Origin: Deltaproteobacteria bacterium
Lineage (GTDB): Bacteria; Desulfobacterota; Deferrimicrobia; Deferrimicrobiales; Deferrimicrobiaceae
DNA: 42,686 nt
Direction: 5' to 3'
NCBI GenBank assembly: GCA_025356865.1
Contig: JANXQJ010000093.1
Coordinates: forward strand, 1 to 42,686
Shown piece by piece: positions 22,041-27,854 of this stretch. Position 1 is the first letter of the stretch; each line of letters starts with the position of its first letter. The notes below the pieces were generated by a model that saw nothing but the letters and a program-made list of their open reading frames with translations, had not been told where the DNA came from and ran no database searches. Made by a program: the position numbers and the translations under genes.

Positions 22041-23480
22041 ATGCCGGCCGCCTTCATCAAGAAATGCGCCGAGTTGCTCAGGGTCGGGCGTCCGATCGAG
22101 GAACGGCTCCGCGACTTCACGAACCTGGTCGGCCTGTTCGCACCGGGGGCGCGTGCAAGCGTGTTGCTTTTCGATCGGGAATCTGACGATTTCTTCCTGC
22201 GGGCCACCAATCTCCGTCTTCCCCCGAACCACCCCGAACTCCAGTTCGGGGCACGCGGCACCGTCGCGGCGCTGGCCCTGCAGGAAGGTCGCCCGCTGAC
22301 ACTTTCCGAGGTCAACCGCACCGGTGGCGCGCAGGGACGCGCTGAAATGATGTTCCTGCCCCTTAAGTTCGGCGGCGATCCGATCGGTGTGCTGGCCGTC
22401 GAGTCCGCATCCCCCAACGGACTCCTGAAGGATCGGTCCGACGCGCTGGTCGAGGCTGCATCGCTGGTTTCCGACATGGTCGGGTCATCGCTTCGCGAGG
22501 AATCGACCACCTTGCGCATGACCAAGATCGCGGCGATCAACGAAGCGGGCGTCAACATCATCTCGACGCTCGACCTTGGGCGGTTGCTCAAGCTCGTCGC
22601 AACCACAGCCGGTCTCATCATGGAAGCCGAGTCGTGCGTAATCCGCCTGTTCGACGCGCAAACCGGCAAGTTCGCCATTCGCGAATTCCAGGGTATGAAG
22701 GCCGAGAACGAACAGAAAGAACTGTTCCGGATGGATACGAAGGCGGTGACGTTATTGCTCAAGGGCGCGCCCTCGGTGCTGGTGCGGGATGTCGGCGAAG
22801 ATACCGGCTGGAAGGAATTCGCGGGGCTTGCCCGCACGATGATCAGTCTTCCGCTGAAGAACGGCGACGACGTGATCGGGACGCTCTCGGTCTTCGACAA
22901 GTTTCCACTGAAAACGTTCTACCCGGCTTCTTTCGGGATTGAAGACCTGTCGACGTTCGAAAAGTTCGCTCGGTATTGCGAGAAGGCGGTGGCCAACGCC
23001 ATGACCTTCGAACGCAACGAGAAACTCAAGAGTCTCGACGAATTGACGGGCCTCCCGACCCTCCGGTATTTCCAGGACCGCCTGCTTCACGAGATCAGCC
23101 GGGCCAAACGGTTCAGGCGACGCCTGGTGCTCATGATCTGCGAAGTCTCCCCGCGTCTGGAAGGGGGCGATCCGGTGTCGCCTTCAAAGGGAGATGCGAT
23201 CGTCAAGCGGATGTCCAACGTGATCAGGTTGGCGCTTCGTGAATACGACATCCTGGCCCGCATCAGCGACCGGAAATTCGCGATGCTCCTCCCCGAGGCC
23301 GAAGACGGCAAGACCAGCGCAATACCCCGCATCAAGAAGGCGATTCTCACCGACGTCGAAGAAATGCGCAAGAAGACCCGGGGAATATCGGTCGATGTCC
23401 GCTTCGGTCACGCCTCGTTCCCCGAGGACGGCGACGACCACGAGAAACTGATATTCAAGTCCAACCTGCTCAAGATGTAA
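22041..23480 (+). CDS. GAF-GAF-degenerate GGDEF signalling protein
   Basis: A 479-residue cytoplasmic protein. Two GAF-like sensory domains (about residues 20-150 and 165-320; MMFLPLKFGGDPIGVLAVES and MISLPLKNGDDVIGTLSVFD are typical strands) precede a GGDEF-fold domain that starts with DELTGLPTLRYFQDRLLHEISRAKR. The catalytic GG(D/E)EF is replaced by SDRKF, so cyclic di-GMP synthesis is not expected. The domain may bind nucleotide or act as a scaffold. It starts five bases after mglA ends, so the two are likely co-expressed and may work together. The ligands of the GAF domains are unknown. Its stop overlaps the next start. Confidence 0.82.
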   Translation: MPAAFIKKCAELLRVGRPIEERLRDFTNLVGLFAPGARASVLLFDRESDDFFLRATNLRLPPNHPELQFGARGTVAALALQEGRPLTLSEVNRTGGAQGRAEMMFLPLKFGGDPIGVLAVESASPNGLLKDRSDALVEAASLVSDMVGSSLREESTTLRMTKIAAINEAGVNIISTLDLGRLLKLVATTAGLIMEAESCVIRLFDAQTGKFAIREFQGMKAENEQKELFRMDTKAVTLLLKGAPSVLVRDVGEDTGWKEFAGLARTMISLPLKNGDDVIGTLSVFDKFPLKTFYPASFGIEDLSTFEKFARYCEKAVANAMTFERNEKLKSLDELTGLPTLRYFQDRLLHEISRAKRFRRRLVLMICEVSPRLEGGDPVSPSKGDAIVKRMSNVIRLALREYDILARISDRKFAMLLPEAEDGKTSAIPRIKKAILTDVEEMRKKTRGISVDVRFGHASFPEDGDDHEKLIFKSNLLKM

Positions 23481-23938
23481 TGGACACGAACCCCGGAAAA
23501 GTGGTGGCGGTATCTGTCTCGGACCGCAAGGGGCAGAAGAAGCGCCCCGTGCCGTTTGCCCTGTTGCTGGTCGAGCACGGGATCGAGGGCGATGCGCACG
23601 CTGGCACCTCCGGGCATCGGCAGGTGAGCCTGCTGGCGGTCGAGAGCGCCGACAAGATGCGCGCGAAGGGCGTTCCGGTCGGCCACGGCGACTTCGCCGA
23701 AAACCTGACGGTCGAAGGGATCAACCTGCTGTCGCTGCGGATCGGCGACCGGTTGCGCGTTGGCGAGGCGCTGCTCGAGATATCCCAGATCGGCAAGGAG
23801 TGCCACGACCGGTGCGCGATCTACCAGCAGATCGGCGACTGCGTCATGCCGCGCGAAGGGCTCTTCGGGCGGGTCATCCGGGGCGGCAGGGTGGCCCCCG
23901 GCGACGTCGTGGTATTCGAACCCGGCGAGCGGTCGTGA
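23480..23938 (+). CDS. MOSC-domain protein
   Basis: A 152-residue stand-alone MOSC domain (molybdenum cofactor sulfurase C-terminal). It shows HGIEGDAHAG, RQVSLLAVES, GDFAENLTVEGINL, GDRLRVGEALLEISQIGKECHDRC and REGLFGRVIRGG, including the conserved Cys residues. MOSC proteins are thought to bind a sulfur or cofactor intermediate in molybdenum-cofactor delivery and detoxification. The start overlaps the previous stop (TAATG) and its own stop overlaps the GTG of the MoaB/Mog gene, so the two Moco genes are coupled. Confidence 0.9.
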   Translation: MDTNPGKVVAVSVSDRKGQKKRPVPFALLLVEHGIEGDAHAGTSGHRQVSLLAVESADKMRAKGVPVGHGDFAENLTVEGINLLSLRIGDRLRVGEALLEISQIGKECHDRCAIYQQIGDCVMPREGLFGRVIRGGRVAPGDVVVFEPGERS

Positions 23939-24426
23939 TCCGGGCCGCCGTCGTCACGGTTTCCGACCGATCATTCCGGAAGGTGCGGGCCGACCTGTCG
24001 GGCCCGGCCGTCGCAGAAACGCTCCGCGCACGCCTCCCCGATATCGAGATCGTCCAGCGGGTGGTCATCCCCGACGACAAACGCTTTATCCGCCGCGCGA
24101 TCCGCTACTTTTCCGACGCGCTTGCCCTCGATCTGGTCCTCACGACCGGCGGCACCGGAGTCGATCCGCGCGACGTGACGCCCGACGCCACCCTCGAAAT
24201 GATCGACCGCGAAGTTCCCGGGATGGCCGAGGCGATGCGTGCGGCCAGTTTGCAAACGATTCCGACCGCCACCTTTTCACGCGCCGTCGCCGGCATCCGC
24301 CGCGAGACCCTCGTCGTCAATCTCCCCGGCAGCCCCTCCGGTGCCCGCGAGAACCTGCTCTCAATCCTCGATACGATCACCCATGCCATCGACAAAATCC
24401 GCGGGACGGGCGGAGACTGCGCCTAA
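23935..24426 (+). CDS. moaB: Molybdenum cofactor adenylyltransferase, MoaB/Mog family
   Basis: A 163-residue MoaB/MogA-type protein, which adenylates molybdopterin before molybdate insertion. The hallmark LTTGGTGVDPRDVTPDAT is present, followed by PGMAEAMRAASL and a C-terminal LVVNLPGSPSGARENL, both usual for the family. The start is GTG 23935, overlapping the MOSC stop, because it gives the proper N-terminus IRAAVVTVSDRSF. The MOSC-Mog pair is a common arrangement. It converges on the minus-strand sulfur-transfer operon with a gap of 25 bases. MoaB versus Mog cannot be separated from sequence alone. Confidence 0.9.
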   Translation: MIRAAVVTVSDRSFRKVRADLSGPAVAETLRARLPDIEIVQRVVIPDDKRFIRRAIRYFSDALALDLVLTTGGTGVDPRDVTPDATLEMIDREVPGMAEAMRAASLQTIPTATFSRAVAGIRRETLVVNLPGSPSGARENLLSILDTITHAIDKIRGTGGDCA

Positions 24427-24451: not shown

Positions 24452-24763
24452 TCAGTCGGCCAGGTCCTCCGGCGCTCCCCCGACCAGGCCCCCGTCGTCC
24501 GGTGCGCCGATCCCGCCTTCACCCAGATCGATCGAAACGTAGAGGAAGCCGAGGCGCCGGAACCCTTCGTGGACGGCGTCTGCGACTTCCGGATCGGACA
24601 GTCTGGAAAGTTGGTCGGCCGCGACTTCGATCCGCGCCGCGGGGCCGTCGGCGAGGACACGGCAACCGGCGAACCCCAAATCGCGGAGGATCGCCTCGCA
24701 CTCGGCCGACGGTTTCATCCCGCCGGGTTCGTTGCTCCCGTCGTCACTTGCACAACATGCCAT
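24452..24763 (-). CDS. Stand-alone LarE C-terminal-like protein
   Basis: A 103-residue protein. Residues about 20-80 resemble the C-terminal part of LarE, the sacrificial sulfur transferase for the nickel-pincer cofactor: ILRDLGFAGCRVL, ARIEVAADQLSRL and RRLGFLYVSIDLG follow the LarE tail pattern of LGF-x-VRVR, ARIE and LGFxYVxxDL. The catalytic PP-loop half of LarE is absent. The protein starts with MACC at ATG 24763, inside the end of the PP-loop gene upstream (20-base overlap), so the two are made together. The Gly/Asp-rich C-terminus replaces the usual GYRxGSMN ending. The similarity is by eye; function is unknown. Confidence 0.55.
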   Translation of the reverse strand: MACCASDDGSNEPGGMKPSAECEAILRDLGFAGCRVLADGPAARIEVAADQLSRLSDPEVADAVHEGFRRLGFLYVSIDLGEGGIGAPDDGGLVGGAPEDLAD

Positions 24764-25808
24764 CCTGCACCTCGGTGAAGTCGTCGTCGCGCGGGACCTG
24801 GATGTCATGCGGTTCCCCGGGGGAGAGGATCCGGACGAGGAACGGAGCCGCTGTCTCGGGCTTGGTGTATCGGCTGTAGATCTTCGAGAGGATCGACATC
24901 GGCAACGGTTCGTCTGCGGTTCCGAAAATGGCGACCGAAGGCCCCGGACAACCCTGGGAGTAATAGACGGTCGGGAAGGGCGACCGGTCCTGCATCGCGG
25001 CGCAGAGCGTTTCGAGTCGGCGGTTGCTCTCCTGGTTCTGGGAAACGACGACCTTCCGACCGTCCGATAACCTGAAGTGACGTCCCACCTTCAGCAGGTT
25101 GAGGTCGGCCATCGTCACATCGCCCGAATGGTCGAACAGGTCGCGGACCTTGATCGCAAAGGTCTTGTCGGCCAGCAGGCAGCCCCCGGCGGGACACGGG
25201 TAGTCGATGACCCCGAGTTCTTCCGCCAGTGCGATCTGCTCCTTGCGCGACCGGCCGGTGATCCCGAGCAGTTTCTCGCGATCGACCCACCCCTCGCGCT
25301 CGGGGAGGGTGGGCTCGAAGTGGTGCGCCGAGAGCGGCCTGAGGACGATGTCGTTGCAGCCGGAATTCTTCTCGATGAAGTGGATCGCGTCGGCCCGCTG
25401 CGACATGGGGCGCTGCCCGATGACTTCTCCGGTCACGAGGAAAGAGGCGCCGATCGAGGTCATGAACTCCCTGGCCTTGCGAAACGTGAATATCCGGCAA
25501 TCGATGCAGGGGTTCATTCCCGTGCCGCGGCCGTGGGATGGCTTGCGGATGACGTCGACGTAGTCCTGTCCCTTGACGATCGTCTTGATCGGGATCCCCA
25601 TCTCGACCGCGACGATCTGCGCCTGGGAATGGCACCCGGCGCTGCTTGCGTCCCCCCCGCGGGAGCAGGTGCAAAAGGGGGAGGTGAAATGGAGCGCGTG
25701 CAATTCCACGCCCTGATCGACGAGCATACGGGCGGCCAGGGTGCTGTCGAGTCCGCCGGACAAGAGGATGACGGCGCGGCGGGGGAGCGATTCGGTCTTC
25801 GGGATCAT
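24744..25808 (-). CDS. PP-loop ATPase, MnmA/ThiI-like putative sulfurtransferase
   Basis: A 354-residue alpha-hydrolase (PP-loop) enzyme. The ATP pyrophosphatase loop is LLSGGLDSTLAARML, near residue 16. Several cysteine motifs follow: CTCSRGGDASSAGC, NPCIDCRIF, YPCPAGGCLLAD and SQGCPGP. The C-terminal third (VGRHFRLSDGRKVVVSQNQESNR) resembles the NFACT-R/DUF814-like module seen in related enzymes of anaerobes. Such proteins are usually annotated as tRNA thiolases or sulfur-insertion enzymes, but the substrate here is unproven. It overlaps the MoeB/ThiF gene by four bases (ATGA) and the LarE-like gene by 20, forming one minus-strand operon devoted to sulfur chemistry. Confidence 0.8.
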   Translation of the reverse strand: MIPKTESLPRRAVILLSGGLDSTLAARMLVDQGVELHALHFTSPFCTCSRGGDASSAGCHSQAQIVAVEMGIPIKTIVKGQDYVDVIRKPSHGRGTGMNPCIDCRIFTFRKAREFMTSIGASFLVTGEVIGQRPMSQRADAIHFIEKNSGCNDIVLRPLSAHHFEPTLPEREGWVDREKLLGITGRSRKEQIALAEELGVIDYPCPAGGCLLADKTFAIKVRDLFDHSGDVTMADLNLLKVGRHFRLSDGRKVVVSQNQESNRRLETLCAAMQDRSPFPTVYYSQGCPGPSVAIFGTADEPLPMSILSKIYSRYTKPETAAPFLVRILSPGEPHDIQVPRDDDFTEVQDGMLCK

Positions 25809-26614
25809 TCTGAGCAGATTCCTTCCTGGATGTAATCGGATGATGAGAGGACGCGAATCCGGCGAACGTCTCCGCATGCCGGGCACGTCGTATTGCGCGG
25901 AACCGGGGTCACGTTGACGGTCCCGTTGATTGTGTCGATGGTCAGCAATCGACCGCAGAGGGGGTCCCCGGCGCCCGTGAGCAGTTTCACGACTTCCATG
26001 GCCTGCCACGAGCCCAAGATTCCCGCTGCCGCCCCGACGATCCCGACGCGAGCGGAACCGGGGGAATCTTCGACGGAAGGGAGATCGGGGAGCAGGCAGC
26101 GGAGGCACGGTCCTTTTCCGGGGATGATCGTGAGCAGTTGCCCGCCGAATCGCAGGACGCCCGCATGGACGAGCGGGGTCCCGGTCAGGACGGCGGCGTC
26201 GCTGCAAAGATATTTGGCCGGGAAGTTGTCGGTTCCATCTATGACGGCATCGTACCGATCGAACAGGCGGCAAGCGTTATCGGCCGTCAGCCGTTCGGGG
26301 TACGCGTCGATTGCCAGGTCGGGCCGAAACGCGGCAAGCGTTCCGGCGGCGGACGCTGTTTTCCGGCTTCCGACGTTGCCGGCCGGGTGGAGGATCTGCC
26401 GGTTGAGGTTGCTTGCGTCGACCCGGTCGCCGTCGATGATCCCGAGCCGACCGACGCCTGCTGCAGCCAGGTAGTAAAGCGCAGGGGAGCCGAGGCCTCC
26501 GGCGCCGACGACGAGGACGGAGGACGTGGACAGTTTTTCCTGCCCGGCGGCGCCGATCTCTTCAACGAGGATGTTTCGGCTGTAACGAATCTGGTTGTCT
26601 TGAGGCAAAGTCAC
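25805..26614 (-). CDS. moeB: MoeB/ThiF/HesA-type E1-like adenylyltransferase
   Basis: A 269-residue enzyme that would adenylate the C-terminal Gly-Gly of a small sulfur carrier such as MoaD or ThiS. Visible are the nucleotide-binding VLVVGAGGLGSPALYYLAAAGVG, DGDRVDASNLNRQ, DGTDNFPAKYL and the zinc pair CLRC/CPAC. The cysteine that usually precedes the GVLG stretch is serine here (GSARVGIVG). MoeB does not strictly need it, but ThiF-type acyl-disulfide chemistry does, which tips the call to MoeB or HesA. The start is GTG 26614. A TTG at 26608 with GAAGG at a better distance is an alternative. First gene of the operon, divergent from the aminotransferase gene. Confidence 0.85.
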   Translation of the reverse strand: MTLPQDNQIRYSRNILVEEIGAAGQEKLSTSSVLVVGAGGLGSPALYYLAAAGVGRLGIIDGDRVDASNLNRQILHPAGNVGSRKTASAAGTLAAFRPDLAIDAYPERLTADNACRLFDRYDAVIDGTDNFPAKYLCSDAAVLTGTPLVHAGVLRFGGQLLTIIPGKGPCLRCLLPDLPSVEDSPGSARVGIVGAAAGILGSWQAMEVVKLLTGAGDPLCGRLLTIDTINGTVNVTPVPRNTTCPACGDVRRIRVLSSSDYIQEGICSE

Positions 26615-26690: not shown

Positions 26691-27854
26691 GTGGGCTTGC
26701 CGATCGACGTCGGTCCGTACCGGGAAAAAGAGTTCCCGGTCACGGCAAAATACGTTTACCTGAACCACGCCGGAGTCTCCCCGATTCCGGCCTCCTCGGC
26801 CGAGGCAGGCATCCAGGTGCTGAACCGTTCGCGCGACGAGGGCGCCGTCCGGCTTCGCAAGTGGGCCGAAACCGGCAACGAGGCGAGACGGCGATTTTCC
26901 CGGCTGGTTGGCGCCTCTTCCGAAGAGGTCGCATTCATCAAGAACACCTCCGAGGGCCTCTCGATCATCGCGGCCGGCTTTCCGTGGAAGGAAGGCGACA
27001 ACCTCGTTACCTCCAATGTCGAATTCCCCGCCAACATATATCCGTGGATGCGCCTTCAGTCCCGGAACGTCGAGGTGCGCATGGTCCCGGCGCGGGACGG
27101 TCGCGTGCGCAAGGAAGACCTGTTCAAGGCGTGCGACGGCAAGACCAGGTTGATCGCGCTCTCGTCGGTCGAGTTTTCCAACGGATACCGGAACGACCTA
27201 TCGGGGATCGGGGAATATTGCCAGCATCACGGCATCTTCTTCTGCGTCGACGCGATACAGAGTCTTGGTGTCCTGCCGATGGACGTCAAGGCCTACGGAA
27301 TCGATGCCCTGGCGGCTGACGGGCACAAGTGGATGATGGCGCCCGAAGGGATCGGAGGGCTCTACGTCTCGAAAGACGTGATGGAGATGATCGAGCCGGT
27401 GATCCTGGGTTGGCATTCCGTCACCAACCGCTTCGACTTCGAGACTTACGATTTTCGTTTGTCTCCGGACGCCCGCCGCTACGAACCGGGCAGTTTCAAC
27501 ACGGTCGGACTGGCGTCATTCAACGCCTCGCTCGATCTGCTGCTCACCATCGGCGTCGACCGGATCCGCGAACGGGTTCGACGGCTGACGGAAGCGGTCA
27601 TCGAATCGGCGCTGAAGGCAGGTTACGAGGTCGTTTCGCCGCGAAACCCCGACGAGCGGTCGGGCATCGTAACATTCAGGGTGCCGGGTTCCGATTGCAA
27701 CGCGCTCAGCAACGCCTTGCTCGGGCGAAATATAGTCTGTGCTCCCCGTGGCGGAGGGCTCAGGATTTCGCCCCATTTCTACAACACGGACGAAGAGATC
27801 GACCGGCTCTTCAAGGCCATAAGCGAGGAACTTTCAGTCCTGGTAGCGATGTAA
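26691..27854 (+). CDS. Class V aminotransferase-fold PLP enzyme
   Basis: A 387-residue fold-type I PLP enzyme of the aminotransferase class V group (cysteine desulfurase / isopenicillin N epimerase-like). The PLP lysine is Lys213 in ADGHKWMMAPEG. Family stretches include YLNHAGVSPIP, FIKNTSEGLSIIA and RRYEPGSFNTVGLASFNASL. The mobile catalytic-cysteine loop of SufS/IscS is not present (IVCAPRGGGLRISPHFYN occupies that region), so a true cysteine desulfurase is doubtful. The substrate is unknown. GTG 26691 is used, with TTG 26697 possible. It is divergent from the sulfur operon and 15 bases ahead of the HD-GYP regulator. Confidence 0.83.
   Translation: MGLPIDVGPYREKEFPVTAKYVYLNHAGVSPIPASSAEAGIQVLNRSRDEGAVRLRKWAETGNEARRRFSRLVGASSEEVAFIKNTSEGLSIIAAGFPWKEGDNLVTSNVEFPANIYPWMRLQSRNVEVRMVPARDGRVRKEDLFKACDGKTRLIALSSVEFSNGYRNDLSGIGEYCQHHGIFFCVDAIQSLGVLPMDVKAYGIDALAADGHKWMMAPEGIGGLYVSKDVMEMIEPVILGWHSVTNRFDFETYDFRLSPDARRYEPGSFNTVGLASFNASLDLLLTIGVDRIRERVRRLTEAVIESALKAGYEVVSPRNPDERSGIVTFRVPGSDCNALSNALLGRNIVCAPRGGGLRISPHFYNTDEEIDRLFKAISEELSVLVAM

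Follow-up and report, generated by a model that had tools for sequence, protein, structure and literature searches.

The analysed window, the whole stretch of 42,686 nucleotides, carries three overlapping genes on its minus strand, as a preliminary description of this DNA had claimed. The first is an E1-like gene of the MoeB/ThiF adenylyltransferase type (P0003, 25805..26614, 269 aa), which shares 4 bases (25805-25808) with a cysteine-rich, thiouridine-synthase-like gene of the PP-loop and NFACT-R_2 type (P0001, 24744..25808, 354 aa). The third gene encodes a stand-alone LarE C-terminal domain (P0002, 24452..24763, 103 aa), which is read as a remnant of the full LarE2 of relatives from its TIGR00268 match, gene maps, tree, selection and fold. 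It overlaps P0001 by 20 bases (24744..24763), so that the old LarE2 start codon is kept inside the end of the PP-loop gene. On the plus strand, a class-V aminotransferase or cysteine-desulfurase-like gene (26691..27854; Pfam Aminotran_5, E 6.7e-57) is the divergent neighbour, which gene order shows to be conserved across the family. It holds the same place in the loci of 22 relatives, and the context of its cysteine, IVCAPRGGG, is presumably unlike the usual SufS motif. The molybdenum cofactor genes described nearby were also found, as a convergent MogA/MoaB-like gene (23962..24426, 5' end not fixed; Pfam MoCF_biosynth, E 5.2e-25) and a gene for a MOSC-domain protein (23480..23938; Pfam MOSC, E 6.6e-12) adjoin the operon on the plus strand. 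In a scan for terminators and promoters the counts were near the shuffled mean.

The ThiF-family adenylyltransferase domain of P0003 (PF00899, E 9.3e-73, residues 11-246 on model positions 1-238 in Pfam) bears out its description as a MoeB/ThiF enzyme, and its best NCBIfam model is MoeB PRK08762 (E 2e-88). P0003 matches the MoeB/ThiF/UbaA E1-like enzymes over nearly its full length, whereas it does not reach the curated cut-off of any NCBIfam model listed, contains no rhodanese domain and has no carrier protein in the operon. Elsewhere in the genome, on contig C70, a ThiS/MoaD-like carrier gene adjoins a TtuA-like gene (P0007/P0008), and this TtuA-like gene with its carrier is one possible client of the E1. 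The operon is of the sulfur-transfer type.

P0001 was found to match the Pfam models ThiI (E 9.4e-11), MnmA HUP (tRNA_Me_trans, E 1.6e-8) and NFACT-R_2 (E 5e-7), and in NCBIfam no match to the LarE model (TIGR00268) was obtained at E<=1. Its AlphaFold2 model (pLDDT 83.4) gave MnmA, ThiI and LarE as the best Foldseek matches; PP-loop proteins generally match the structures of these three alike. P0001 is a complete member of the PP-loop/NFACT-R_2 thiouridine-synthase-like family, to which ThiI and MnmA are related, and it is conserved across the phylum (present in 55/59 related genomes). Its cysteines may serve a [4Fe-4S] thiolation role.

The small protein and the PP-loop protein had been proposed to form a split LarE, with the tail as the C-terminal half of the sulfur insertase and P0001 as the ATPase half. 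The shared operon, the overlapping genes and the resemblance of the predicted P0001 structure to LarE structures are consistent with this proposal, and the part of it that stood is the homology of the tail to the LarE C-terminal domain. P0001, on the other hand, is not a LarE half: it is a complete protein of a different family and carries a second, C-terminal domain of its own. Homology of the LarE tail to this NFACT-R_2 domain was rejected by profile comparison (hhalign probability 0.2%, E 0.35). Moreover, nearly all of the relatives with P0001 are without a tail-only gene, and in 21 of the 26 class genomes, a count which includes G020 (frame break) and G023 (assembly gap), both LarE domains come after P0001 in addition. 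The tail is also without Arg214 and a conserved loop. A complete larE elsewhere had been named beforehand as an argument against the split, and one (LarE1) is present on contig C158 of the window genome (TIGR00268, 324.8 bits), which makes a split unlikely. The family of P0001, the intact LarE2 of relatives and LarE1 are grounds for rejecting the split enzyme, to which we would assign only a very small probability.

P0002 matches the LarE model in the tail only (TIGR00268, E 5.2e-7, 29.2 bits, residues 21-80 on model positions 193-250 of 259 in NCBIfam), falling short of the 150 bits that the curated cut-off demands over the whole length of the model, and no Pfam match was found below E 0.29. 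In its AlphaFold2 model, based on 31 related rows, the core residues 21-80 were confident (block pLDDT 77-86) and the ends loose. The best 50 rows listed by Foldseek against the PDB were all LarE, with 5udw_F as the best structure match (E 6.6e-4, 60 columns, rmsd 1.5 A, 37% identity). Both the sequence and the predicted fold therefore agree with the LarE-like C-terminal part first noticed in this protein. With VIA-align, LarE chains reached Z up to 10.2 and were followed by KH-containing and other chains, most of them at about 5.5-7. The type II KH domain has the order alpha-beta-beta-alpha-alpha-beta with a GxxG loop. The predicted element order of P0002 (H-E-E-H-H-E) fits this order, and the KH-containing chains come after LarE with Z about 5.5-6.7, so that P0002 could bind RNA or nucleotides as an adaptor of the PP-loop/NFACT-R thiolase. 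However, Z values under 8 may reflect only a common arrangement, and no GxxG loop was seen between the two helices of P0002; such an adaptor is considered highly improbable.

In comparison to LarE, which inserts sulfur in nickel-pincer nucleotide synthesis as a sacrificial or [4Fe-4S] enzyme (L. plantarum 5UDQ series, T. maritima and M. maripaludis), P0002 shares the sequence and fold of the C-terminal domain and keeps the Arg212 equivalent (R35) and the ARIE motif. Whereas, the PP-loop and its SGGxDS motif are absent from its 103 residues, and the region of Cys176 or the CxxC-C triad is deleted. This cysteine or triad is an active-site feature of LarE, and Ser180, Arg212 and Arg214 are proposed to hold the substrate phosphate (PMC9283937). 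Ser180 falls in the deleted part of P0002, and the Arg214 position is occupied by L37 in the tail of the window genome (G000) and by V in that of a second genome of the same genus (G001); both tails are also without the YRxGSMNE loop. The threefold axis of the LarE hexamer passes by the C-terminal domain, at Asp231, Arg228 and Gly207 (PMC7118094).

The gene order in the relatives has the aminotransferase gene divergent from thiF, the PP-loop/NFACT-R gene and full LarE2, with convergent mogA and MOSC after them; not all contigs extend over the whole set, mogA/MOSC were not seen in every relative, and in G018 the 2.4 kb preceding P0001 showed no thiF. Beside the 21 class genomes with both domains, 3 of the 26 hold only the start codon and tail of LarE2 in this slot, namely G000, G001 and G016, the last from another genus; of the other two, G008 lies at a contig edge and G019 gave no match. 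G002, also of the window's genus, has full LarE2 in the slot. The G001 tail occupies the same place as P0002 with 68% identity, which makes the tail more than a chance occurrence. The short gene of G016, which rests on one 3607-base contig, likewise starts inside the PP-loop gene. Assembly error was rejected as the cause, since the short form is shared by two separate genomes, G000 and G001, and no N occurs in the window or in the loci L075 and L058.

Beyond the class, 80 P0001 loci were listed, several of them with short flanks. At least 14 have LarE on the same strand, no more than about 350 bases away from the P0001 match (one of these, L112, belongs to the window's family), and 4 more have it within the locus. 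The LarE matches there cover nearly the whole of LarE, and no tail-only gene was present among the 80 loci. Among the matches listed in a phylum survey of 296 genomes at least 90% complete, a set without G016, the open frames under 250 aa were those of G000, G001 and G082. The G082 case was rejected as tail-only, being a full LarE with one in-frame TAG (L199, G082:C336, 1452-2252), which may be damage, assembly error or readthrough. LarE-tail matches with one TAG inside were also observed in other genomes of the phylum (G088:C1:906935, G274:C1:1684441 and G198:C7:17667). No report of a truncated or stand-alone LarE was found in the literature searched, in which few subscription papers were covered.

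Besides LarE1, the window genome has LarB and LarC together on contig C22 and a LarA-type gene on C53. Since all four are present outside the operon, the nickel-pincer pathway appears, from gene content, to be complete without the tail. The LarE1 clade (support 100/99) was found in exactly four class genomes, G000, G001, G002 and G016. The tail-only form thus occurs in 3/4 of the LarE1-bearing genomes and in 0/20 of the other class genomes scored, a pattern with an arithmetical chance of 0.002 when shared ancestry is ignored.

In the LarE tree, the G000 and G001 tails pair with each other (100/100), with the full LarE2 of G002 next to them (99/94), and the G016 tail falls in another part of the family (98/94). 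The first two share a long stem (0.94, versus terminal branches of 0.36 and 0.29) and derived residues in both catalytic loops, such as R32A, Q33G, Y83G, R84G and M88P, from which the deletion is taken to predate the G000-G001 split. With only the LarE data, a tree that forces the three tails together was not rejected (p-AU 0.213). The grouping of G016 with G000/G001 was strongly rejected on P0001 plus ThiF (p-AU 2.4e-52), and the nearest relative of G016, G011, has a full gene. As the neighbour genes separate G016 widely from G000/G001, a single origin would need the transfer of the tail alone; two deletions are a more economical explanation, though short of proof. The operon LarE2 probably became redundant and then had its ATPase domain deleted, probably twice.

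The main rival to retention of the tail by selection is decay, in which redundant larE2 was stripped of its ATPase domain and the tail that is left is a functionless pseudogene on its way out. The loss of Arg214 and the YRxGSMNE loop fits this explanation, as do the fast change of the tail and the lack of any tail-only form among the 80 P0001 loci and the other listed matches of the 296-genome survey. Measured on the single pair G000-G001 over 99 codons, the tail has dS 0.75, dN 0.21, omega 0.28 and pN/pS 0.39 (bootstrap 0.23-0.60), whereas five neighbour genes of the same pair gave omega 0.05-0.13. These values apply to the tail in its detached form only if the deletion came before the two genomes diverged. 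For the G016 tail, omega against full relatives was 0.22-0.32, with part of the path predating its deletion, compared with 0.03-0.13 for intact pairs. Neutral simulation (six settings of 500 runs, with stops rejected and with base composition assumed in half of the settings) gave a mean pN/pS of 0.87-1.07, and 0/3000 runs were as low as the observed value. Against decay, pN/pS is far below all of these runs, the codon-position differences are 25/13/39 of 99 codons, and the frame is open in both G000 and G001 though a stop arose in 41-82% of neutral runs. An antisense gene was rejected as the source of constraint, as the G001 antisense frame holds two stops. By these codon comparisons the constraint on the tail is relaxed but not absent, and decay is regarded as rather unlikely, with a real share of probability left to it.

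Residue conservation was scored on 41 LarE columns with an identity of 85% or more across 28 full-length rows; of these columns G000 keeps 20, G001 19 and G016 26. The equivalents of E200, G207 and Arg212, the ARIE stretch and several hydrophobic positions are kept in all three tails; G000 and G001 have lost Arg214, the histidine that follows two positions later, and the YRxGSMNE loop. Retention of the predicted fold with loss of the substrate site suggests an assembly or binding role.

We are inclined, with some reserve, to the explanation that P0002 is a beheaded redundant LarE2 which has been retained as a translated, non-catalytic interaction domain. The ancestral operon would have been thiF - PP-loop/NFACT-R - larE2, with a full LarE2 carrying the PP-loop ATPase, the CxxC...C cysteines and the C-terminal domain. 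As the window's lineage has a second full LarE, LarE2 would have become redundant for nickel-pincer nucleotide synthesis. Comparison with the relatives shows that an internal deletion removed the catalytic domain and kept the start codon and the C-terminal reading frame. The tail has since lost substrate-binding residues and kept its predicted fold, and the G000-G001 pair shows that purifying selection on this now separate protein has become weaker. It may now be a candidate accessory subunit of LarE1 or of the presumably co-expressed PP-loop/E1 proteins. The much faster change of the tail than of the neighbour genes speaks against this explanation, as does the loss of conserved LarE columns in all three tails. 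A broader and more tentative idea is that on more than one occasion a LarE C-terminal domain became detached from its ATPase and was preserved by selection as a small stand-alone protein, that this protein associates with the remaining LarE or the PP-loop thiolase of the operon and modulates it, and that ordinary LarE has the same function concealed in its tail.

If the tail is functional, the job of the LarE C-terminal domain, such as assembly or partner binding, would be separable from sulfur insertion and could be tested with one small protein. If it is decaying, the locus would clearly capture a gene in the course of being displaced within a conserved sulfur operon. Annotation of the part-match as 'LarE' would mislead here.

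LarE1 of the window genome comes after genes which we take to be O-acetylhomoserine sulfhydrylase and CysK. Near LarE1 of G002 (L097, G002:C14, 3209-6708) there is a second ThiF/MoeB, 48% to P0003, and the same run presumably also includes O-acetylhomoserine sulfhydrylase and a JAMM-type peptidase, an arrangement like that of sulfur-carrier cysteine routes. Two MoeB/ThiF genes are likewise present in each of the loci L156 and L157, one of them directly before the PP-loop/NFACT-R gene.
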